Origin: Bacteroidota bacterium
GTDB lineage: Bacteria; Bacteroidota; Ignavibacteria; Tepidaquicellales; Tepidaquicellaceae
Direction of reading: 5' to 3'
Assembly: GCA_018266835.1 (NCBI GenBank)
Contig: JAFDZP010000002.1
Location: 1,339,302-1,403,301, forward strand
DNA length: 64,000 nt
In this document: positions 4,233 through 51,313 of the stretch, piece by piece
Layout: each line of letters begins with the position of its first letter
Position numbering within the stretch: position 1 is the stretch's first letter
Program-made: the position numbers and the translations under genes
The notes under the pieces: model-generated
Told to the model about the DNA's origin: nothing
The model's input: the letters and a program-made list of their open reading frames with translations, nothing else
Database searches by the model: none

Positions 4233-4261
4233 AGTGATTAAAAATTTTGCATACAAAAAAT

Positions 4262-4300
4262 CCCGCTGCTCAAAATTCGAACAGCGGGATTTTCTTTTTT
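4262..4300 (+). terminator. Intrinsic terminator after the 492-aa gene
   Basis: CCCGCTG (4262-4268) pairs with CAGCGGG (4282-4288), followed by a T-rich run (4290-4300). It lies 30 bases after the stop codon of the gene ending at 4232. Confidence 0.8.
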
Positions 4301-4350
4301 CATCTTTATAACGGAGGTGAATTATTACAACTTGTTCCGCTCCTTTTTTC

Positions 4351-4407
4351 TTAGTCCCAAACCCCTGTTTGGGACTAAGAGCTTTCCCAAACAAGGGTTT
4401 GGGAAAG
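4351..4407. repeat. Two adjacent perfect palindromes (REP-like)
   Basis: TTAGTCCCAAAC (4351-4362) pairs with 4367-4378. Directly after it, CTTTCCCAAAC (4382-4392) pairs with 4397-4407. The two hairpins share a CCCAAAC/GTTTGGG core and lie in the convergent gap between the genes ending at 4232 and 4421. They may act as a terminator for the leftward gene, but the tandem layout resembles a dispersed palindromic repeat unit. Confidence 0.65.
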
Positions 4408-4420
4408 AGAATATCTTTTT

Positions 4421-5662
4421 TTATTTTACAAGAAGCATTTTATTTGTAATTACACTGCCTGAAGTTCTTAACGAATAATAATAAACTCCCGAAGATAAAT
4501 TCGCTGCATTGAACTTCACACTATAAGAACCCGTTCCCATTTTTTCATTTACTAAATTCGCAACTTCTCTTCCCTGCATATCATAAACTTTCAATGATAC
4601 AAAATCCGATTTTGAAATATCAAACTTAATATTTGTTTCCGGGTTAAACGGATTCGGATAATTCTGATACAAATTAAAATGCACCGGCTCGCCAAGATTG
4701 TTAATTCCTGTCGGAGTATATTGCGTAACGGGTTCGCTGATAGTTACATGTCCGCCGCCGGGACCTGTATTGCCTGCTGTAACAACTCCGTAATATGTGC
4801 TGCCTATTAAGTATGGATACTCAGGATTTCCAAGCGAATCAATTGTTAAGTAGTAAGCATAAATTCCAGAAGGGTATTCGGGTGTGACTGAAAATCTTCC
4901 GTTGTGAACATCAAGGTCGCCGCCTGTGTATGGTTCCCAGTCCTCATAAAAACATCCCAGTGGATATGTTGAGTTGATTGCAGGTCCGTATTGTGCAGCT
5001 GTTAAAACTGTTCCGTCAGGTAATGTTGTTCTTGTTGTTATGTTTCTTTTTCTGTAACCGCTTTTCATTCTGCGTATTCCGCCTGTGCCGTTTACATTTG
5101 AGTAAGCATATGAACCGTAGATTGGGTAACCGTCAAACATATATCCTACTAATGGTGAGTGCTGGCTTGAGTTGCCCGAGTAAAGTCTTGTCATGTTTAT
5201 ATGATAATGATATGCACCGCCGGGTGCAGGGTGTCCGCCCGATGTATCGAATCCTGTGCCTTCAAAGTAATATGCGTTTCTGTGCCAGATGTTTAAATTG
5301 TTATAGGACATTGCGTCACCTGCATTGAATGCAACTACTCCGTTTTTGAATACTCCGATCTGTCCGCCGCCAACAGTTGTAAGTGTGCCTGTATTTGGAA
5401 CCGGGAATCTTGTAATTTTAAATGACCAGCTTTGATTGGTCGGTACATTAGGATTCATTGCCCAGGGACCGATTGTATAAGACGGTATTCCCGAGGCTTT
5501 CACATAAACATAATTGGCTGAGTAAAAAACCTGCTGCACATCTGCAGGAAGATTGTTGTAGCCGACTGCTCCTGTAGTGTTTTGCTTCCATGTTGAAAGC
5601 TCCGGCTGCGGGTAAGCAACTGAAACTATCAGAAATAAAAGAGCTAAAATTGTTTTCTTCAT
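4421..5662 (-). CDS. YHYH-domain secreted protein with T9SS signal
   Basis: A 413-residue protein with an N-terminal signal peptide (about 1-18). A YHYH domain follows: GGAYHYHIN at residues 148-156 carries the name-giving motif, and GYMFDGYPIYG nearby is also typical of the family. The end is a T9SS C-terminal signal beginning with NYPNPFNP near residue 336. YHYH proteins are extracellular and of poorly defined function; histidine-rich motifs suggest metal binding, but that is inference. The upstream region carries palindromes at 5681-5745. It is transcribed alone. Confidence 0.85.
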   Translation of the reverse strand: MKKTILALLFLIVSVAYPQPELSTWKQNTTGAVGYNNLPADVQQVFYSANYVYVKASGIPSYTIGPWAMNPNVPTNQSWSFKITRFPVPNTGTLTTVGGGQIGVFKNGVVAFNAGDAMSYNNLNIWHRNAYYFEGTGFDTSGGHPAPGGAYHYHINMTRLYSGNSSQHSPLVGYMFDGYPIYGSYAYSNVNGTGGIRRMKSGYRKRNITTRTTLPDGTVLTAAQYGPAINSTYPLGCFYEDWEPYTGGDLDVHNGRFSVTPEYPSGIYAYYLTIDSLGNPEYPYLIGSTYYGVVTAGNTGPGGGHVTISEPVTQYTPTGINNLGEPVHFNLYQNYPNPFNPETNIKFDISKSDFVSLKVYDMQGREVANLVNEKMGTGSYSVKFNAANLSSGVYYYSLRTSGSVITNKMLLVK

Positions 5663-40895: not shown

Positions 40896-43022
40896 TTACT
40901 TTATTAAAACCATCTTCTTTGTCTCTGTAAACCCATCTGTTTTCAGAGTGTAAAAATAAATTCCGCTTGGCAGATTAAATTCTGTTGAATTAAAATCCAT
41001 AGCATAGCTTCCCGCATTTTGTTTTTCGTTAACAAGTGTAGCAACTTCTTTCCCGAGTAAATCATAAACTTTCAGCGATACAAATCCTGAAGATTTTATT
41101 TCGTAATTTATTTTTGTAGTAGGATTGAACGGATTGGGATAATTTTGGTGAAGTAGAAATTGTTCAGGTATTTGTGATGAAATCTGAGAAGCGAATATAC
41201 TACCGCCGGTAGTGGTTTTAATTATTACTCCCCCGGAACCGACGATCCAACCGGTGTTATCATTTACAAAATTAATTGAATTTAATTGAGTTCCCGATAG
41301 ATTACTTACATCAAACCAGGTTTCGCCCGTGTTAGTTGTTTTTATAATTTTTCCATCGTCACCAACGCACCAACCTGTCAATTCGTTTGTGAATTTAATA
41401 TCGTTCAGCCAATCAGAAGAATGAACGGTCCGCCAATTCATACCCCCATTAGTTGATTTCATTATTTTATTGCTAAGTATAAAGCCTGTGGTTGAGTTGA
41501 TAAAGTTAACATGAAAACTCACTTCAGGAATTACAGCAGATGCCCAAGATGCTCCCCCATTATTTGTTATTTGAATTTTAGGGTTTTGATAATTCTCATG
41601 TGAAAGAACCCATCCCGTTGAAGTGTTTTTAAATTGGATATCTGTCAGATAATAACTTCCGGGTGAATTGACTGAAGTCCACGATGCTCCGCCATTTATA
41701 GTGCTTCTTATTCTTCCAATATCATCACAAACCCATCCGGTAGAATTATTTAAAAAAAACAAAGAATTAATTCTTACACCTCCTGATGCAAGAACTTCTG
41801 TCCAGCTCTGTCCAGCATTTGTGGATCTCAATATAAATGAAAAATAAGGAGGTATTCCACCGGGCGAATCAAGTAGATTTAGTAAAATATTTTCCGTAGA
41901 AAGAAATATTATTTTATCTGAATAAGCGGCTGAATATGAACCATACGAACTTTGTATCCAGTCTTCACCTCCAGTGCTGGTTTTTAAAATAAGATTATTC
42001 CATCCAACACAGATACCGGTTAAATCATTAATAAAATTTACACCGGAAAGAGTATTAAAAGCAGAAGTGTTTAAATGCGTTACATTCCAATTAATTCCCA
42101 TATCAGTTGTTTTTAAAACAGAATTACTTTTAGACGAAGCGAACAAAGTTAATGAATCTATTACATAAAGTGATGTGAGGTATAGTGAACTATTGGCATA
42201 ATATGAAATCCAGCTTTCCCCGCTATTTGTAGTTTTAAAAATTTTCCCTTCGCTTCCGCAGGTGTAACCTGTTTTATCATTTAAAAAATACAATGAAGTT
42301 AATACTCCTGCAGGTATATAATTTTGCTGAACAATCCAATTTATCCCCATATTAGTAGTTTTTAAAACCCTTGTTCCTTGCGCGCCCCAGCCCAACGAAT
42401 CATTTATGAAAAACACTTGCCTCATATCACCAATAGTTGATATTGTTTCTATCCATGATACCCCGCCATCAGTTGTTTTGTAGTAATCGTTCGTTCCTGT
42501 AATTATACCTACATTGTCATTAAAAAAATTTATATCTGTCAGAGAACTCGATGTAGATTGTTGTCTTTGCACAAACCAATTTATACCGCCATTTGTTGTT
42601 TTTAAAATAGATAGACCATAACCGCATACAAATCCCGTTTGCGAATTAATAAATTTTATAGAACTTAAATTTGAAGAGAATAAGCTGTTTTGTAATATCC
42701 AATTTTGTCCACCGTTAATGGTTTTCAGAATTTTACCTGAACTTCCTGCAGCCCAACCTGTCAGTTCATTTAAAAAATAAAATTTGTTTACAGAAAATTC
42801 TAAGTTATTATATTGAAGTATCCAGTTTGATCCTTTGTCTATAGTTTTTAAAATTGTTCCGTTGTTACCACCTAACCAACCTGTATTTGAATTTATAAAT
42901 GTTATACAGTTGAAGCTAGAACCGAAAGGATGCGGATTTTGTACAATCCACCCGCTTTGCCCAAATAAATTTCCCGTAGTTAAAAAAAAGACTAAACATA
43001 GAAATAACTTTTGCTTTTTCAT
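40896..43022 (-). CDS. Ycf48-like propeller secreted protein with T9SS signal (cluster gene A)
   Basis: A 708-residue protein. A signal peptide (about 1-21) precedes about thirteen Ycf48/BNR repeats of 40-45 residues with the turn KTTNGGxNW and a GFxxG/GWxxG strand (for example ILKTINGGQNWILQ, VLKTTNMGINW, IIKTTNTGETW). The C-terminal T9SS signal has the shared cassette sequence (see findings): from NYPNPFNP through YDLLGKEVATLVNEKQNAG and SGIYFYTLK. It is the last gene of a five-gene leftward series. Proteins of this build are surface-exposed; ligand unknown. Confidence 0.88.
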   Translation of the reverse strand: MKKQKLFLCLVFFLTTGNLFGQSGWIVQNPHPFGSSFNCITFINSNTGWLGGNNGTILKTIDKGSNWILQYNNLEFSVNKFYFLNELTGWAAGSSGKILKTINGGQNWILQNSLFSSNLSSIKFINSQTGFVCGYGLSILKTTNGGINWFVQRQQSTSSSLTDINFFNDNVGIITGTNDYYKTTDGGVSWIETISTIGDMRQVFFINDSLGWGAQGTRVLKTTNMGINWIVQQNYIPAGVLTSLYFLNDKTGYTCGSEGKIFKTTNSGESWISYYANSSLYLTSLYVIDSLTLFASSKSNSVLKTTDMGINWNVTHLNTSAFNTLSGVNFINDLTGICVGWNNLILKTSTGGEDWIQSSYGSYSAAYSDKIIFLSTENILLNLLDSPGGIPPYFSFILRSTNAGQSWTEVLASGGVRINSLFFLNNSTGWVCDDIGRIRSTINGGASWTSVNSPGSYYLTDIQFKNTSTGWVLSHENYQNPKIQITNNGGASWASAVIPEVSFHVNFINSTTGFILSNKIMKSTNGGMNWRTVHSSDWLNDIKFTNELTGWCVGDDGKIIKTTNTGETWFDVSNLSGTQLNSINFVNDNTGWIVGSGGVIIKTTTGGSIFASQISSQIPEQFLLHQNYPNPFNPTTKINYEIKSSGFVSLKVYDLLGKEVATLVNEKQNAGSYAMDFNSTEFNLPSGIYFYTLKTDGFTETKKMVLIK

Positions 43023-43140
43023 AGCATTGTTATTTTAAATTTGAAGTGTATGAAAATGTAATGAAGAAAAGAAAAAATAGCAACTTAAATAATTAGTGCG
43101 TAAATAATTCGCAAAATTACAGAGAGGGATATATACTAAA

Positions 43141-43179
43141 ATCCCTGATTACATTATCTTCATCAAAGCAATCAGGGAT
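43141..43179 (-). terminator. Terminator-like hairpin after cluster gene B
   Basis: ATCCCTGATT (43141-43150) pairs with AATCAGGGAT (43170-43179). On the minus strand it is followed by TTTTAG. It lies 10 bases beyond the stop of the 43189-45288 gene and shares CTGATTAC with the intergenic repeats near 40.3 and 40.8 kb. Confidence 0.65.
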
Positions 43180-43188
43180 CTTTAAAAT

Positions 43189-45288
43189 TTATTTTATTAA
43201 AACCATCTTCTTTGTATCAACAAACCCATCCGTACTCAATGTATAATAATAAATTCCGCTTGGCAGATTAAATTCTGTTGAATTAAAATCCATAGCATAG
43301 CTTCCCGCATTTTGTTTTTCGTTAACAAGTGTAGCAACTTCTTTCCCGAGTAAATCATAAACTTTCAGCGATACAAATCCTGAAGATTTTATTTCATAAT
43401 TTATTTTCGTTGTAGGATTGAACGGATTGGGGTAGTTTTGGGAGAGGGAAATATTATCGGGTATAATATTCCCTATAGACCGAATAAAGGAAGTTCCTCC
43501 GCTGGTAGATCTGAGAATTATTCCTCCAGTTCCGCATATCCACCCGGTGTTTATATCGATGAAATGAAGACTGTAGAGCTGTTCATGAGTTCCGGTATCA
43601 TATTTTTTCCAGTTAGCTCCTCCGTTTGTAGTTCGTACCAAAGCACCATTATCTCCGCAAGCCCATCCATAATTTTCATTCAGAAAATAAATCGTCCATA
43701 GAGGATCAATTGTAGCTCCATCTTGTGTAAACCAGTTTACTCCCCCGTTAGTAGTCTTATACACACCTCCAAAATATTTTGTAAGCCAGCCAGTAGTTTC
43801 GTTTACAAATGATATTGAATTTATCTGCCTTACTATCCCTCCCGGAGGAACATTATAATGTTCCCAATTAGATCCGCCGTTAGTGGTTTTTAAAATTTCA
43901 GAATTAGCATCACACATAAATCCCGTATTGGAATTTATAAATTGCAGCTGAAACGGACTCAAGCTTCCTGATGAACAAATTGTATCCCAATTAACGCCTC
44001 CGTCAGAAGATTTGTAAATTTTCCCATAATCTGTGCTGAACCAGCCGAGAGATTTATTTATAAAAAAAACAGGACGAATCTCGTCATAGCGGGTAAGGAC
44101 AGATTTAATCCATGTAATTCCGCCGTCTTTTGTTCTCAGGATAAATGAACTATCGCTTATTGAATTATATCCTGCTATCCATCCATTTAATGAGTCAAGA
44201 AAGCACCCACTTTTAAAACTTAAATCTTCGTGAGTGCCGCTGTTCAGCGGGAGCCAGTTCACTCCGCTGTTGGTGGTTTTATAAATATTACCACCTCCGC
44301 CTGCAGCCCACCCTGTAGTATTATTTATAAAATTTATTGAAGCAAGATAATCACCTGTACCATTTGATTTTATCTGCCAGTGTTTTCCCGAATCCGATGT
44401 AAAAATTATTTTACCTCCATAGCCGACTGCCCATCCGACTACTCCGAAAAAATTTATAGAATATAATTCATCATAGATTTGCGTATTCTGCAGTATCCAG
44501 TTTACTCCGCTGTTAGTGGTATGTAATACCATTCCATTTTGACCGCAGATAAATACATTAAGTGAGTCCTGAATGAAAATAGAATTCAGTCTTCCTGTAA
44601 CACCGCTTTGATGCATCTGCCAGGTGCTTCCGAAGTCAGTTGTTTTATAAATTCGTCCGGTATCACCTGAAGCCCACCCTGAGCCGTTCTGCATTAACTT
44701 AACTGAATAAAGTGCTGCGGGATTGCTGAGGACGGTTTGCCAGTTAATTCCACCGTTTGTGGTTTTTCCAATTACGCCAATATAGCTGCAAGCGACTCCG
44801 AGATTTTCATTATTAAAATGGAGAGAAGTAACTGCCGGAACGGATGCACCTGAGAGCCAGTTATTACCTCCGTTAGTTGTTCTGTAAATTCCGTTATCTC
44901 CTATCCATCCTGTGTTTTCATTAGCGAAAAAAATTGTACGGGGAAACTGTGAATAGCTTGGCAGCGAAAGAGGGAACCAGGAATTTCCTGAATCGGTGGT
45001 TTTGTATAATTTTCCGTTATATCCCACAACCCATCCTGTAGATGAATTCAAAAAATATAATGCAGACATGGTTTCATTTATTCCGACAACAAATGGAGTC
45101 CAGTTAATACCTGCGTTAGATGTTTTTAAAACTAATCCGGATTGGCCTGCTGCTAAAAAAGTCTGACTATTAATTATTGCTGAACCGTAGAGGTCTGAAT
45201 TAGTCGGATAGGGTGATTGCTGAATCCATTGAGTGTATCCGAAATTTGAGATACACAATAAAATAATTACTAAAAGAATCTTTTTCAT
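43189..45288 (-). CDS. Ycf48-like propeller secreted protein with T9SS signal (cluster gene B)
   Basis: A 699-residue protein with the same architecture as gene A: signal peptide (about 1-19), about thirteen Ycf48/BNR repeats (VLKTSNAGINW, LYKTTDSGNSW, IYRTTNGGNNW, and similar), then the T9SS signal. Its N-terminal and repeat regions differ clearly from gene A, while the T9SS cassette DNA is identical over 148 bp. It is 166 bp upstream of gene A. Confidence 0.88.
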   Translation of the reverse strand: MKKILLVIILLCISNFGYTQWIQQSPYPTNSDLYGSAIINSQTFLAAGQSGLVLKTSNAGINWTPFVVGINETMSALYFLNSSTGWVVGYNGKLYKTTDSGNSWFPLSLPSYSQFPRTIFFANENTGWIGDNGIYRTTNGGNNWLSGASVPAVTSLHFNNENLGVACSYIGVIGKTTNGGINWQTVLSNPAALYSVKLMQNGSGWASGDTGRIYKTTDFGSTWQMHQSGVTGRLNSIFIQDSLNVFICGQNGMVLHTTNSGVNWILQNTQIYDELYSINFFGVVGWAVGYGGKIIFTSDSGKHWQIKSNGTGDYLASINFINNTTGWAAGGGGNIYKTTNSGVNWLPLNSGTHEDLSFKSGCFLDSLNGWIAGYNSISDSSFILRTKDGGITWIKSVLTRYDEIRPVFFINKSLGWFSTDYGKIYKSSDGGVNWDTICSSGSLSPFQLQFINSNTGFMCDANSEILKTTNGGSNWEHYNVPPGGIVRQINSISFVNETTGWLTKYFGGVYKTTNGGVNWFTQDGATIDPLWTIYFLNENYGWACGDNGALVRTTNGGANWKKYDTGTHEQLYSLHFIDINTGWICGTGGIILRSTSGGTSFIRSIGNIIPDNISLSQNYPNPFNPTTKINYEIKSSGFVSLKVYDLLGKEVATLVNEKQNAGSYAMDFNSTEFNLPSGIYYYTLSTDGFVDTKKMVLIK

Positions 45289-45415
45289 AAGATAAATTTC
45301 TCAAAGCTATTAATTTAACAGGTAAGAACAAAAGATTTTTTAAGCGAAAAACACAGAAAATAAACTGCTGTTAAATATGAAATAAACCCTAAAACTATAG
45401 CCTGTATTATAATTA

Positions 45416-47521
45416 TTATTTCACCAGCACCATCTTTTTTGTCTCAGTAAATCCATCCGTTTTAAGAGTGTAAAAATAAATTCCGCTTGGCAGATTAAAT
45501 TCTGTTGAATTAAAATCCATAGCATAGCTTCCAGCATTTTGTTTTTCGTTAACAAGTGTAGCAACTTCTTTCCCGAGTAAATCATAAACTTTCAGCGATA
45601 CAAATCCTGATGATTTTATTTCGTAGTTTATTTTCGTTGAAGGATTGAACGGGTTTGGATAGTTTTGAAAAAGTGAAAAATTATCTGGAATGTTTGTGCT
45701 TACCTGCTTAACTCCGCTTGTTCCCCCTGTAGTAGTTTTAAACAATACTCCGTTTGTACCCCCAAGCCATCCGGTCATTTCATTAATGAAATAAAGAGAG
45801 TAAAAATTTCTTTTACTTAATATGTTTTCATAATTCCATGTAGTTCCGCCATCAATGGATTTGATTATTTTTCCCTGAACATCGTAACAAAACCCCGTGA
45901 GACTATTAATGAATTTAATTTCAGGCATAAATAATTTTATTCCAAATGAACTTAATTCGATGGTTGTCCAGTTACTCCCTCTATTAGTTGTTTTAAAGAC
46001 CTGATTGGAATTGCAAACCCATCCTGTTTGTGGATTGATAAAGCTTACACTGTTGCTTATCATCAATGGAATGGAAGGTGTAATTGCTTGAAATGAAATT
46101 CCTCCATCAATTGTTATGTAGGTGTTGAATGTTCCTGCCATAAAACCAGTCGACGCATTTAAAAATTGTAACTTTGAAGTTGCATTTTGATATCCTTGAA
46201 ACCAGTTTTCACCTCCATTTGTAGTCTTATATAATACACCGGATGTATTTACCATAGCCCATCCCGTCTGCTGATTTATGAAATATATATAATTGAAATC
46301 CGAGTTTATTCCAAAATTTAGTGTAAGCCAGTTTTGCCCTCCATTTGTTGTTTTATAGAGTGCACCTTGCGGACCTGAAGCCCAGCCGGTATTTACATCT
46401 GCAAAAGATAAACTGTAAATATTTGATGAACCCAGTGGAATGTTTACATTCCAAGTATTCCCTCCATCTGTGGATTTTAAAACTTCGTTAGGATAATTTC
46501 TGGCATATCCTGTTAATGAATTTAAAAACTGAACATTATAAAAAGATTTTGAAGTATTTAAAGAAAAATACGGAATCCAGTTTTCTCCCGCATTAGTTGT
46601 TTTGAAAATTGAGCCAAGCTCTCCTATACAAAACCCTGTACTTGAGTTAATAAAATTTATAAATTTTAAATTTATATTTTCATTATGAATATTTATATAT
46701 TCCCAGTTGCTTCCACTGTTTGTGGTTTTCATCAAATAAGTATTGCCAATAAAAGAAAACGTTCCTACTGCATAGCCTGTTTGGGAATTTATAAATGAGC
46801 TTGAATAGGGAGTTATCCAGTATCCGGCCCCATTACCTAGCTCTGTCCAATTTACTCCGCCATTTGTAGATTTATAAAAATAATATCCGCTCGGTGCCCA
46901 TGCATTTTGATTATCAAGAAAGTTTACATGATTTACAAAACCAATTGGTGTAGGACCGTTTGTCCAAGTCTGGCCCATATCTGTAGTACGAAGTTGTTGA
47001 TTTTGACTAAAAATTACTACAGTGTTATTAGGCAGCTTATTCATGGTTTTCAGATTTGTGCTTCCGGAAAAAAGTAAAGTCCAGTTTAAACCTCCATTTG
47101 TAGTCTTAAGAACGTTTGCAGTATCACCGCAGATCAATCCGTTCATTTCATCCCAGAAAATTACACCATTGAGATCTTGATTGCTGACGCTTGATATTGA
47201 GACCCAGCTATCACCTCCATTTGTTGTTCTCAGTATTTTTCCTTTTGTGCCGACTGCAACTCCTGTTAGCACATTGACAAAGTAAACTGAATTTAAGTTG
47301 TAAGAGCCGTTAATTTCTTTTACGTTCCAATAAGCACCTCCTTCTTCAGTTTTCATAATTAAGCCCGAATTTCCCACAATCCACCCTGTGTAATTATCGA
47401 TAAAGAAAATATCATTGTATTCGCCTCCAATAGGTGATGCATTCGGAGACTGCCATCCGCTTTGCCCGAAAACAATTTGTCCCCAGATAAAAAATAAAGT
47501 AATTATTATAAACTTTTTCAC
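45416..47521 (-). CDS. Ycf48-like propeller secreted protein with T9SS signal (cluster gene C)
   Basis: A 701-residue protein with a signal peptide ending FGQ (about residue 19), Ycf48/BNR repeats (for example LRTTNGGDSW, LMKTTNSGSNW, LYKTTNGGENW) and the T9SS signal cassette, which differs from that of A and B at two positions in the shared 148-bp core. It starts 9 bp after the stop of gene D, so the two are surely co-transcribed. Confidence 0.88.
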   Translation of the reverse strand: MKKFIIITLFFIWGQIVFGQSGWQSPNASPIGGEYNDIFFIDNYTGWIVGNSGLIMKTEEGGAYWNVKEINGSYNLNSVYFVNVLTGVAVGTKGKILRTTNGGDSWVSISSVSNQDLNGVIFWDEMNGLICGDTANVLKTTNGGLNWTLLFSGSTNLKTMNKLPNNTVVIFSQNQQLRTTDMGQTWTNGPTPIGFVNHVNFLDNQNAWAPSGYYFYKSTNGGVNWTELGNGAGYWITPYSSSFINSQTGYAVGTFSFIGNTYLMKTTNSGSNWEYINIHNENINLKFINFINSSTGFCIGELGSIFKTTNAGENWIPYFSLNTSKSFYNVQFLNSLTGYARNYPNEVLKSTDGGNTWNVNIPLGSSNIYSLSFADVNTGWASGPQGALYKTTNGGQNWLTLNFGINSDFNYIYFINQQTGWAMVNTSGVLYKTTNGGENWFQGYQNATSKLQFLNASTGFMAGTFNTYITIDGGISFQAITPSIPLMISNSVSFINPQTGWVCNSNQVFKTTNRGSNWTTIELSSFGIKLFMPEIKFINSLTGFCYDVQGKIIKSIDGGTTWNYENILSKRNFYSLYFINEMTGWLGGTNGVLFKTTTGGTSGVKQVSTNIPDNFSLFQNYPNPFNPSTKINYEIKSSGFVSLKVYDLLGKEVATLVNEKQNAGSYAMDFNSTEFNLPSGIYFYTLKTDGFTETKKMVLVK

Positions 47522-47530
47522 AGTAAAAAT

Positions 47531-49054
47531 TTATTTTATTAAAATCATTTTTCTTGTCTCATTAAACTTCCCTGCATTCAAAGTATAAAAATAAATTCCG
47601 CTTGGCAGATTAAAGTCAGTTGAATTAAAATCTACAGCATAATTTCCTGCATTTTGCTTTTCGTTTACTAAAGTCGCAACTTCCTGCCCGAGCAAATCAA
47701 AAACCTTCAGGCTAACGAAATTCGTAATTTTTAATTCGTAATTAATCTTAGTAGTAGGGTTGAATGGGTTTGGGAAATTCTGATATAACTTATATGAAAC
47801 AGTAGAAGATGTGTTCGGAATTTCCGTCAAATATTCTGTCATAGAGGAACCCATCAGGGCAATCCTGCCGTTTACATTTTGCTCCCATACAGCTCTGAAT
47901 TTGTATGAGGGACCGATTATTCCGCTGCTGGGCAGTGTTTCACTTAAATCAACTTTTGAGTTTACGCTTGCATTGCCGATGTATTTTTTTCGGATTGTTG
48001 AACTGTTTTTTGAGCTATCACATTGTCCTATAAGTGTGATAAAGGTTGAATCAGCAGTTTTTGTAACACAGCCGAAACCATTAAAATGAAAATTATTACC
48101 GGCGGCGTTATTTGAAAAAATATATGGAAATATTACTCCTTTGCCGCCTGAATGACTTCCTGCTAAATTATTTGTAAAATTGTAAACGGAGGGGTTTGGA
48201 GCGGAATATGTGCCGCGGCAAGATTGTGTTGATACCCCGTAGTCAAACCCGATGTAATAGCCCCCAAATATGTCTCTGTTGTATCTCGGATTTTTTTGTG
48301 TTTCGGATAAATTTGATTCAAACAATGACTGCCATGTAATATCTGCTGTAGTAATATTAAAATTAAATGCCCTGTAATTCAACTTTGATAATGAAGGAGA
48401 GACTTCTTTTACAAAAGAAAATACATATAAAGTGCTTGCGCTGATAATCAAAGGTGAGGAACAGTTTTCGCTGATGCCGTCTGTAAGATTCTGTTCAGTG
48501 CCTATCCATGTTGAAGTTTCTGATTTATATCTTCTGAGAAACAAATCATTGCCTCTTTTAAAAATCAGAAAAGAAAAATTATATTGTAAAGGTGAAGTGT
48601 TGTTGTTCAGATATGCCGGAGTTGTTTCATCTTCATTTGTGCAGCCGGGGTATATTACAGGCGCTGACCAGCCTGCTCCGTTGTAAGTTGAATAATATAT
48701 ATCCCAGTTACCGTTTTTATTTGATTGCCATACAACCGTATTAATGCTGAATACAGGATTTATATTAAGCTCACCCTGGCTATTTGTTACAGGAACTTCC
48801 TGGCTGTAGCCTGTATAACTTGCTGTTCTGAACATTATATCCGATGAGCTGCCATTATGTCTCTCATAAAATAAATTTGCAGTTGGAGAGCTTAAATATT
48901 CATTTGCGAAAGTTGGATTTTTATAATCATAAGAAGGAGAAGATACTAAGGTATCGGCCTCCATAAAATAAACAGGAGACTGAGCCTTACAGTTATTTAG
49001 AGAGATATAAAGAAAGAGTGTAATAAAAGCAAAGAGAGTAAATGTGTTTTTCAT
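47531..49054 (-). CDS. Secreted protein of different fold with T9SS signal (cluster gene D)
   Basis: A 507-residue protein. The signal peptide ends CKAQ (about residue 25). The body (about 30-415) has no KTTNGG repeats but shows regular Asn/Tyr/Ser/Trp-rich strands with SNKNGNWDIYYSTYNG-like blocks, as in TolB/WD-type propellers that bind polysaccharides or peptides. The T9SS signal follows (NFPNPFNP, YDLLGQEVATLVNEKQNAG variant). Tight spacing to gene C. Function unknown. Confidence 0.85.
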   Translation of the reverse strand: MKNTFTLFAFITLFLYISLNNCKAQSPVYFMEADTLVSSPSYDYKNPTFANEYLSSPTANLFYERHNGSSSDIMFRTASYTGYSQEVPVTNSQGELNINPVFSINTVVWQSNKNGNWDIYYSTYNGAGWSAPVIYPGCTNEDETTPAYLNNNTSPLQYNFSFLIFKRGNDLFLRRYKSETSTWIGTEQNLTDGISENCSSPLIISASTLYVFSFVKEVSPSLSKLNYRAFNFNITTADITWQSLFESNLSETQKNPRYNRDIFGGYYIGFDYGVSTQSCRGTYSAPNPSVYNFTNNLAGSHSGGKGVIFPYIFSNNAAGNNFHFNGFGCVTKTADSTFITLIGQCDSSKNSSTIRKKYIGNASVNSKVDLSETLPSSGIIGPSYKFRAVWEQNVNGRIALMGSSMTEYLTEIPNTSSTVSYKLYQNFPNPFNPTTKINYELKITNFVSLKVFDLLGQEVATLVNEKQNAGNYAVDFNSTDFNLPSGIYFYTLNAGKFNETRKMILIK

Positions 49055-49129
49055 AACCGCTCCTTTGAATTTAATTTTTAAAATTTGTTTTGTTTCCCAA
49101 TATTGTTTATTGAGCAGTTCTAAATTTAA

Positions 49130-51313
49130 TTATTTTACCAAAACCATTTTTCTTGTTTCATTAAACTCCCCCGCGTTCAGAGTATAAAAATAAATTCCGC
49201 TGGTTAAACCATATTTACCTGCATCAAATGAAGCCTCATAAACTCCTGCATTTTGAATTCCATTTATTAGTGTGGCAATTTCTCTTCCGGTAATATCAAA
49301 TACAGAAATCTTTGCAAAAGTTTTTTGGTTCAGCTCATAAGTAAATTTTGTTGACGGATTAAACGGATTCGGATAATTTTGCGAGAGTGAAAAATTCTTC
49401 GGAATCTCAGATGAAATACTTCTAATATCATCTCCCCATCCCTGAACATAAACACCTGAATCTCCGCCGTAAAAGCAGCTGAATCCTCCCCATGCAAGAG
49501 AATATGCGCTTGTATCTTTAACATATTGAGTTGTATTTAATGAACTCCATTCTGGAGAGATAAGGCTTCCGTTAAAGATTAAAATTCCTCTGTAATTATT
49601 ATTACCGGGATATTTTCCGGTGGCAAAAATTACTTCATAAGGTGAGTGCAAAACTCCTTCATTCTTTATTATATCATAATAATTAAGATTATCTGAAGCA
49701 ATGCCGCTGTTTACTTTTACCCAATTATTGCCTTCATTTGTTGAATAGAATACTCCGCTTCCACTTGTACCTGCATAGATTCCGTTCCCCAATCCAATGC
49801 TTAAAATATTAGAGCCCGTCAGACCGTTATTTGCTTCTACCCAACTGCTTCCATTATTGGTAGATTTGTAAACACCGTGGTTATCGGTTCCAAGATAAAT
49901 TGTACCTGAAATTACCTCCAATGTATTGATATGTGCACCTGCAGGATAACCGTTAATCAGAGTTTCCCAGTTTGTGCCTTCGTTAGTTGTTCTGTAAACT
50001 CCGCCGCCGTAAACATAAATTACTCCGTTAGATATTTTTACTCCTGTTACACTCGGAGTTGGTGAACCTAATTGAGTAAAGTTAGTTCCTGAATTTGTAG
50101 ATTTGTATATATTTGAATTTAATAGTATATATAAATTACTTCCTGATAAAGTTAAGTCACTAACAGTTGATGGCAATGTTACCGGCAGCTGTATAAAATT
50201 CCATGAATCTCCTCTTGTTGTTGAGTTGTATAGTTGTCCGTTCGCTATTGCATATATGTTGGGTACGTTAATTTCAAGTTTTGAAACTTTTGAACCTATT
50301 GGGATTCCTTTAATTTCTCGCGACCAGTTTTGTCCAAGGTTTGTAGTTTTCCATAATCCCGGGTATCCTGATGTTGCTATGAATGACCCTTGTAGAGAAT
50401 ATAAATTATTATAATTAATCCCTGAGGAATTTTGCAGTGTAGTATTCCACGTTGCGCCGCCATCAGAAGAAACTGCTATGTAGTTAGATGTTCCTGAAAT
50501 TGTAATATAGTTGAATGTTCCTATGTAAGAGTTGAATTGCGTATTTATTATTGAATGGGGATTTTGCGAGCATACAAATCTGAATGAATCTAAACCATTA
50601 TTTGATTTATATAAACCGTATGTTGGAATTCCCCCCGCATATGACGCGCCCGATGCAAAAACATTTCCGACAGAGTTAATATATATTAAAGAGTAAGTTT
50701 CGTATGAAGGCATTCCTTCTGCTTTTTGCCAGCTTACACCTGCGTTTGTAGAACGGTATAGTCCCCGGTTAACGGAAATATTTGTATAACCTGAAGTGAA
50801 ATACAAAATATTGTTTTCATCTATTTGTAAGTTTATACAATCAGTTTGCGGAGGAACGCCGTTATTTCTTGCGCTCCATGTAGATCCATTATCTGTTGAA
50901 CAGTAAATTCCTTTGCTGGTAGATGCAAAGATGCTTCCGGGGACATTCTTAACAAATCCACTTATCGCAATTGTATCGGGCAGGCCTGAAGTTATTTTTG
51001 ACCAGTTACTTAAATTTGTTTCTCGGTAGATTCCGTTAGCTGTTCCAACTAAGTAAACATTGTTTCCTGCATAAAATAAAATTGATGGAGAATCAGCAAA
51101 ATGACCGCTCTCTATTTTTTCCCAGCTGTAAAACAATCCGTTACTTCTGTATAAGTCATTATTATAAAACATAAAGTAATCACCATTGTAACTGGTAAAT
51201 AAATTATGTAATGGATAAGAAGTATTTGTTCTTGTCCAGGGACCGTAGGAATCAATCTGACAGTAAATAAAATTTGCGCAAAGCAAAATGAGTGTTAATA
51301 TAATCTTTTTCAT
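49130..51313 (-). CDS. BNR/sialidase-like propeller secreted protein with T9SS signal (cluster gene E)
   Basis: A 727-residue protein, first of the leftward series. A signal peptide (about 1-18) precedes repeats of the BNR/Asp-box type (IYCSTDNGSTW, LYRSTNAGVSW, VYKSTNNGSSW, VFYSTNEGNNW) that differ from the KTTNGG form of genes A-C by beginning S-T-x-N/D-x-G. The T9SS signal ends it. BNR repeats occur in sialidases and in surface adhesins; no sialidase catalytic Arg triad is apparent. It starts 75 bp upstream of gene D. Confidence 0.86.
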   Translation of the reverse strand: MKKIILTLILLCANFIYCQIDSYGPWTRTNTSYPLHNLFTSYNGDYFMFYNNDLYRSNGLFYSWEKIESGHFADSPSILFYAGNNVYLVGTANGIYRETNLSNWSKITSGLPDTIAISGFVKNVPGSIFASTSKGIYCSTDNGSTWSARNNGVPPQTDCINLQIDENNILYFTSGYTNISVNRGLYRSTNAGVSWQKAEGMPSYETYSLIYINSVGNVFASGASYAGGIPTYGLYKSNNGLDSFRFVCSQNPHSIINTQFNSYIGTFNYITISGTSNYIAVSSDGGATWNTTLQNSSGINYNNLYSLQGSFIATSGYPGLWKTTNLGQNWSREIKGIPIGSKVSKLEINVPNIYAIANGQLYNSTTRGDSWNFIQLPVTLPSTVSDLTLSGSNLYILLNSNIYKSTNSGTNFTQLGSPTPSVTGVKISNGVIYVYGGGVYRTTNEGTNWETLINGYPAGAHINTLEVISGTIYLGTDNHGVYKSTNNGSSWVEANNGLTGSNILSIGLGNGIYAGTSGSGVFYSTNEGNNWVKVNSGIASDNLNYYDIIKNEGVLHSPYEVIFATGKYPGNNNYRGILIFNGSLISPEWSSLNTTQYVKDTSAYSLAWGGFSCFYGGDSGVYVQGWGDDIRSISSEIPKNFSLSQNYPNPFNPSTKFTYELNQKTFAKISVFDITGREIATLINGIQNAGVYEASFDAGKYGLTSGIYFYTLNAGEFNETRKMVLVK

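Follow-up and report, generated by a model that had tools for sequence, protein, structure and literature searches.

Related systems and the locus under study

Homogenisation of one end of otherwise diverging surface-protein genes has been described in Helicobacter pylori, where the 3' segments of babA/babB and homA/homB, according to the passages considered here, undergo concerted evolution through gene conversion within the genome (PMC2795765, citing Pride and Blaser 2002; PMC4552749). Likeness of the C-terminal domain (CTD) among clustered cargo genes of the type IX secretion system (T9SS) is known from Tannerella forsythia, whose KLIKK proteases are described in passages of the corresponding report as combining distinct catalytic domains with "virtually identical" CTDs, a likeness which the authors regarded there as unusual and possibly due to a recently acquired common domain, leaving its origin open (PMC4404884). 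Those passages contain no analysis of silent sites or of conversion. For the gingipain and haemagglutinin genes of Porphyromonas gingivalis, domain rearrangement and allelic exchange have been reported (PMC5266723). Here we examine a 148-bp tract of identical DNA in the CTD-coding ends of neighbouring T9SS cargo genes, located in a window of 64,000 nucleotides (the whole stretch of DNA that was analysed) on the 1.75-Mb contig JAFDZP010000002.1 of a 4.0-Mb genome of the Ignavibacteria.

As in the H. pylori bab and hom genes, to judge from the passages cited, the genes studied here are paralogs coding for surface proteins, in which homogenisation within the genome affects the 3' part and the remainder diverges. 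The H. pylori genes, however, are described there as few in number and as coding for outer membrane proteins closely related overall (hom approximately 90% identical), with conversion tied to adhesin variation, whereas the bodies considered here are approximately 34% identical, what the genes have in common is the T9SS export domain, and the process extends to many pairs from the arrays of several genera. The KLIKK group belongs to another lineage and another CTD subtype, and its identity, in the passages available, is one of protein sequence extending over the whole CTD and further common segments. The genes described below do not belong to that group, as they code for propeller repeats rather than a protease and end in MVLIK or MVLVK rather than KLIKK. 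The P. gingivalis genes are likewise T9SS cargo genes which swap modules by recombination, but the modules are adhesin and catalytic ones moving between strains, rather than a CTD passed among adjacent genes of a single genome. Within the open-access literature, a search for gene conversion together with T9SS CTDs yielded only the gingipain paper and no report of conversion as the cause of CTD likeness, subscription papers being outside the search. The type of process, concerted evolution of 3' ends, is already known; its link to T9SS CTDs is without prior report in the open-access literature.

An identical tract in diverged genes

Genes A (40896..43022, 708 aa), B (43189..45288, 699 aa) and C (45416..47521, 701 aa) lie next to each other on the minus strand. 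All three have the same architecture, with YCF48-like/BNR beta-propeller repeats followed by a type A T9SS CTD, and gene A is predicted to code for a secreted protein; the bodies of B and C are 34% and 37% identical to that of A, respectively. The tract occupies 40955..41102 of the minus strand in A (148 bp, 49 full codons, EIKSSGFVSLKVYDLLGKEV...LPSGIY) and recurs without any difference in B (43248..43395, minus strand). Its counterpart in C (45475..45622, minus strand) agrees at 146 of the 148 positions, and both differences, which correspond to positions 41091 and 41013 of A, are synonymous. The exact match between A and B and the two differences in C, as given in a preliminary description of this DNA, were thus reproduced. 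Just upstream of the tract, on the same strand, A and B also have in common an identical block of 20 bp (..NPFNPT; 41119..41138 in A, 43412-43431 in B). In the next two genes, D and E, exact matches to A do not exceed 29 bp.

The synonymous sites set the tract apart from the rest of these genes. Within it, A and B differ at none of 32.3 synonymous sites and A and C at two of 32.3. Divergence resumes at once on either side: for A and B, the proportion of differing synonymous sites (pS) reaches 0.67 in the tail before the tract and 0.53 in the 19 codons after it. Between their bodies, which are 34% identical in amino acids, it amounts to 0.72, with differences at 281 of 389 synonymous sites. Across the three pairs, body pS ranges from 0.68 to 0.74 and protein identity from 33 to 37%. 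The divergence of the repeat regions and of the last codons, which had also been claimed, is therefore borne out, the latter most clearly by A and C, which retain 95% protein identity over the last 19 codons at a pS of 0.79. The contrast between tract and body is significant for each pair (Fisher exact test, P = 3.6e-17 for A/B, 2.7e-12 for A/C and 2.8e-14 for B/C), and, for a tail of 288 sites with 41 differences, a 148-bp run has a chance probability of 1.8e-13. Copies from another array in this genome (on contig C5) show a pS of 0.52-0.68 to A within the tract, although the tract protein is 86-90% identical in the best matched of them. Since these copies and the last codons of A and C keep their protein sequence and vary silently, silent sites are not protected by protein constraint; selection on the protein keeps the domain without keeping its silent sites, and the tract therefore requires recent copying. 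We consider it very probable that the identity marks a recent non-reciprocal recombination (gene conversion) tract, copied from the 3' end of one T9SS cargo gene to that of a neighbour. A GENECONV-like permutation test, as had been suggested for this locus, gave a global P of 0.0005 for A/B with all tail sites and of 0.0015 when only third codon positions along the entire tail were used. The contrast between tract and body (P = 3.6e-17) carries more weight than this test.

Recurrence among neighbouring genes

Further copies were searched for among 130 CTD genes of this genome (G000) and of a second genome of the same genus (G001), pairs being retained when they shared at least 40 identical aligned tail bases. 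This was the case for 21 of the 303 same-genome pairs lying within 25 kb of each other, for none of the 4082 more distant same-genome pairs, and for none of the 4000 pairs between the two genomes. Two other genera of the family gave the same picture (7/161 near and 0/2324 far; 2/118 near and 0/1773 far). Pooled over these four genomes, which represent three genera of one family, 30 of 582 near pairs qualify against 0 of 8179 far ones, with P = 2e-36 serving only as a guide, as the pairs are not independent. The restriction to neighbours favours a local process. In the C5 array, exact tail runs of 104, 92 and 77 bp were found between pairs, and an adjacent pair of G001 genes shares 152 bp, with bodies 32% identical. 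Outside the family, two adjacent genes of a Stygiobacter metagenome-assembled genome (MAG) have a 116-bp exact tail run, bodies 22% identical and common palindromic insertions in the tail.

The C5 array (C5:475378-497875, loci L031-L032) comprises thirteen T9SS genes on one strand, most of them approximately 10-35 bp apart, and is likely a single transcription unit. Its tails form a mosaic of three types (KINYEIKSSGF, RINYELRNTNY and VIRYQLSVAGF), the last two of which are also found in array C36 of G001. The Stygiobacter insertions are two in-frame palindromes, CCCTCCAAAGGAGGGA and GACGCCATATATGGCGTC, located in the CTD-coding region (L164:8661 and 10097; L164:8780 and 10216), and resemble protein-coding palindromic repeats.

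Comparison with the sister genome

The locus syntenic to A-E in G001 lies between counterparts of the genes that flank the array here, one of the nitrilase family (85%) and one of the beta-CASP family (79%), and contains only one T9SS gene (C3:52210-54366), so the size of the array has changed since the split. The body of this gene best matches that of E (33%), while its tail is 83% identical in nucleotides to the tails of the C36 array and 64% to that of E. The order of duplication and homogenisation could be followed in two quartets elsewhere, formed by G000 C1:304157/299855 with G001 C2:175573/176920, and by G000 C2:459590/461849 with G001 C9:73480/77834. In both, the bodies of orthologs are 49-81% identical and those of paralogs 33-38%, so the duplications predate the species split. 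Silent-site differences between the tails of the G001 paralogs nevertheless amount to only 27% and 18%, compared with 36-73% between orthologs. Both quartets thus show the phylogenetic pattern of conversion, their tails having been homogenised after the split. Similarly, the body orthologs C5_485353 and G1_C36_25962 (80% amino acid identity) have tails 75% identical in nucleotides, compared with 78-81% between each tail and those of its own array paralogs.

Several observations weigh against gene conversion as the cause, or limit how far it can be followed. When the permutation test is confined to third positions after the NPFNP motif, the global P for A/B becomes 0.36 (pairwise P 7.7e-5, or approximately 0.01 after correction for 136 pairs), significance being lost because the tract fills most of the sequence that can be compared. 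The syntenic locus contains no one-to-one orthologs of A, B or C, and the phylogenetic test applies to other pairs only. Over all unambiguous orthologs, tandem and single genes differ in the direction expected under conversion, but not significantly (10/15 vs 1/5, P = 0.13). Lastly, some near pairs have similar bodies (for example G008 C6:271080/272418 and, in this genome, C3:368282/369116) and may be ordinary young duplicates; neighbours may in general be younger duplicates, with baseline similarity contributing part of the distance effect. In pairs matched for identity, a measure that includes the run itself, the median run is 25 within arrays and 17 between arrays, which argues that younger age of neighbours is not the whole of that effect.

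Position of the tract within the sorting domain

An AlphaFold2 model of the CTD (pLDDT 86.5) is almost entirely beta, and its matches in the PDB include the T9SS CTDs 8gl8_D and 8gl6_D (RemA CTD) and 8qb1 (mirolase), at weak E-values of approximately 0.01-0.04. On this model, the tract would correspond to residues 32-80 of 99, and would take in the end of strand 27-33, strands 37-44, 50-59 and 62-68, and the start of strand 78-85, thus running from the final residues of strand 2 into the beginning of strand 6, with the first and the C-terminal strands outside. Two elements of such domains, the L-beta3-beta4 motif and the C-terminal motif, have been described as relevant to T9SS function (PMC11285876). 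The loop DLLGKEV, within the tract, appears to align with the former, while the last strand, which carries the latter, lies outside. The preliminary description spoke of a "T9SS signal cassette"; the shared DNA is indeed inside the CTD, but it covers the middle of the domain and not the whole sorting signal, and the term seems too strong, as judged from the sequence, given that the C-terminal strand implicated in export is not part of the tract. Nor does "cassette" fit the boundaries, as the tract ends within the CTD and the ends of other tracts vary. A fixed-end cassette was rejected, and there is no indication of a mobile or site-specific (integron-like) one, since tract ends differ between pairs and identity stops within coding sequence. 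Over the 21 pairs, coverage by tracts is greatest in the central part of the CTD and no tract reaches the last eight codons, a distribution to be expected where only the shared domain can pair and ends are unstable.

Mechanism and alternatives

The copying could have proceeded as follows. A, B and C would be old paralogs, with bodies approximately 34% identical and silent sites saturated, in which only the CTD-coding region of approximately 290 bp is still alike enough for pairing. During repair or replication of one copy, a neighbouring gene a few kb away would serve as template and the middle of the CTD would be overwritten. The tract would stop within the CTD since neither the upstream body nor the downstream intergenic DNA, both unrelated between the genes, can pair. 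Repeated events would hold the tails of an array alike (concerted evolution) as the bodies diversify. We infer non-crossover recombination between misaligned neighbours; either copy may have been the donor, and both RecA-type conversion and template switching at the fork could supply the enzymes. Selection for a good export signal may favour some of the products. Recent gene conversion between neighbours, the reading already put forward in the preliminary description, is supported by the saturated bodies, the clean tract, the presence of a single T9SS gene at this locus in G001, the neighbour-only recurrence and the two quartets.

The alternative which survives best, though we consider it improbable, is that the body and not the tail was transferred, either by swapping of cargo between a common leader and tail or by an unequal crossover that created new junctions between body and tail. 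It would account for the unequal gene number in the sister genomes and for the GC content of the body of gene B (39%, where the bodies of A and C have 34-35%, the window as a whole 35% and all tails 32-33%), a body which may have a different origin (43189-45288). Two unrelated genes of the C5 array, 479717 and 494140, moreover agree at 94% of the 36 bases that open their coding sequences and at 86% of the 35 bases before these. However, the identity between A and B starts inside the CTD and stops before the last strand, so that a diverged piece of tail separates body and tract, and the identity to the gene end or into intergenic DNA expected from swapping or crossover is absent. Among array genes, the longest exact match between bodies is 26 bp, at the start codon, and no recent exchange of bodies is visible. 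As a separate observation, the 35 bases preceding the start codon are 69-86% identical among C5 genes 478415, 479717, 484020 and 494140, three of which begin with MRKQK, and exchange at the 5' ends of these genes is possible as well.

Assembly or polishing may also copy one tail onto another, as short-read polishing can over-correct near-identical repeats. This is very unlikely here: C retains two private differences, the sequence around the copies, on a contig of 1.75 Mb, is unique, and similar tracts recur in the four genomes of the family and also in a MAG not related to them. Plain recent tandem duplication, with young genes whose bodies diverged rapidly under selection, would agree with the same orientation and architecture of these adjacent genes, and with an array that grew or shrank relative to the single gene of the sister genome. 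The repeat regions are not equally similar at synonymous sites, as it would require; with body pS and protein identity as given above, it is rejected, since fast selection cannot saturate the silent sites of the body and of the tail flanks and leave the tract at zero, and we give it hardly any weight. Equally remote is selection on the DNA itself (codon use, an overlapping element or RNA structure), for which the good conservation of the protein stretch could be cited, but which is rejected as silent sites change freely among paralogs whose protein is almost the same, with between about one half and two thirds of them differing from A in the C5 copies and in gene D, and Rfam gives no match in the tract region.

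Gene conversion between neighbours offers a concrete and testable cause for uniform export domains in clustered T9SS cargo genes, which the authors of the KLIKK report left unexplained; being recurrent and local, it addresses a loose end in the T9SS field. CTD trees would then mirror local conversion rather than gene history, and CTD type could not be used for inferring cargo ancestry or orthology. The limit to neighbours also makes T9SS arrays a natural test bed for the distance over which short, diverged repeats exchange sequence in bacteria. More tentatively, and with considerable doubt on our part, tandem arrays might act as recombination platforms in these genomes (at least 150 T9SS CTD matches each), in which local conversion keeps leader and CTD recombinable, so that bodies can be gained, lost and exchanged with export preserved; the range of a few kb would then point to template switching at the fork and not to genome-wide homologous repair.

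Other features of the locus and the genome

Genes A-E (40896-51313) are all on the minus strand and appear from their sequences to code for secreted proteins. Each carries a C-terminal T9SS type A sorting domain above the curated cut-offs (TIGR04183, 41.6-48.2 bits, cut-off 23; PF18962, 30-38, cut-off 27), and the CTDs terminate in MVLIK or MVLVK. Gene D (47531..49054, minus strand), for which no clear family could be assigned to the body, is outside the recent conversion, with a pS of 0.48 to A in the tract region, and serves as an internal control. Gene E (49130..51313, minus strand) has Sortilin-like/BNR repeats and a diverged CTD.

Elsewhere in the window, positions 4255-4425 (minus strand) match the SR1 small RNA of Rfam barely above threshold (48 vs 45 bits); this stretch is 3' intergenic and contains hairpins, including the palindromes TCCCAAAC..GTTTGGGA, and the match is probably spurious in this lineage. 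A search of genome contigs with the whole of protein A found no relative, and a search with the CTD alignment returned named relatives at 80 loci, mostly in Ignavibacteria MAGs. With at least 150 T9SS CTD matches per genome of 2.9-4.0 Mb, G000, G001, G008 and G021 have a very large secreted repertoire.

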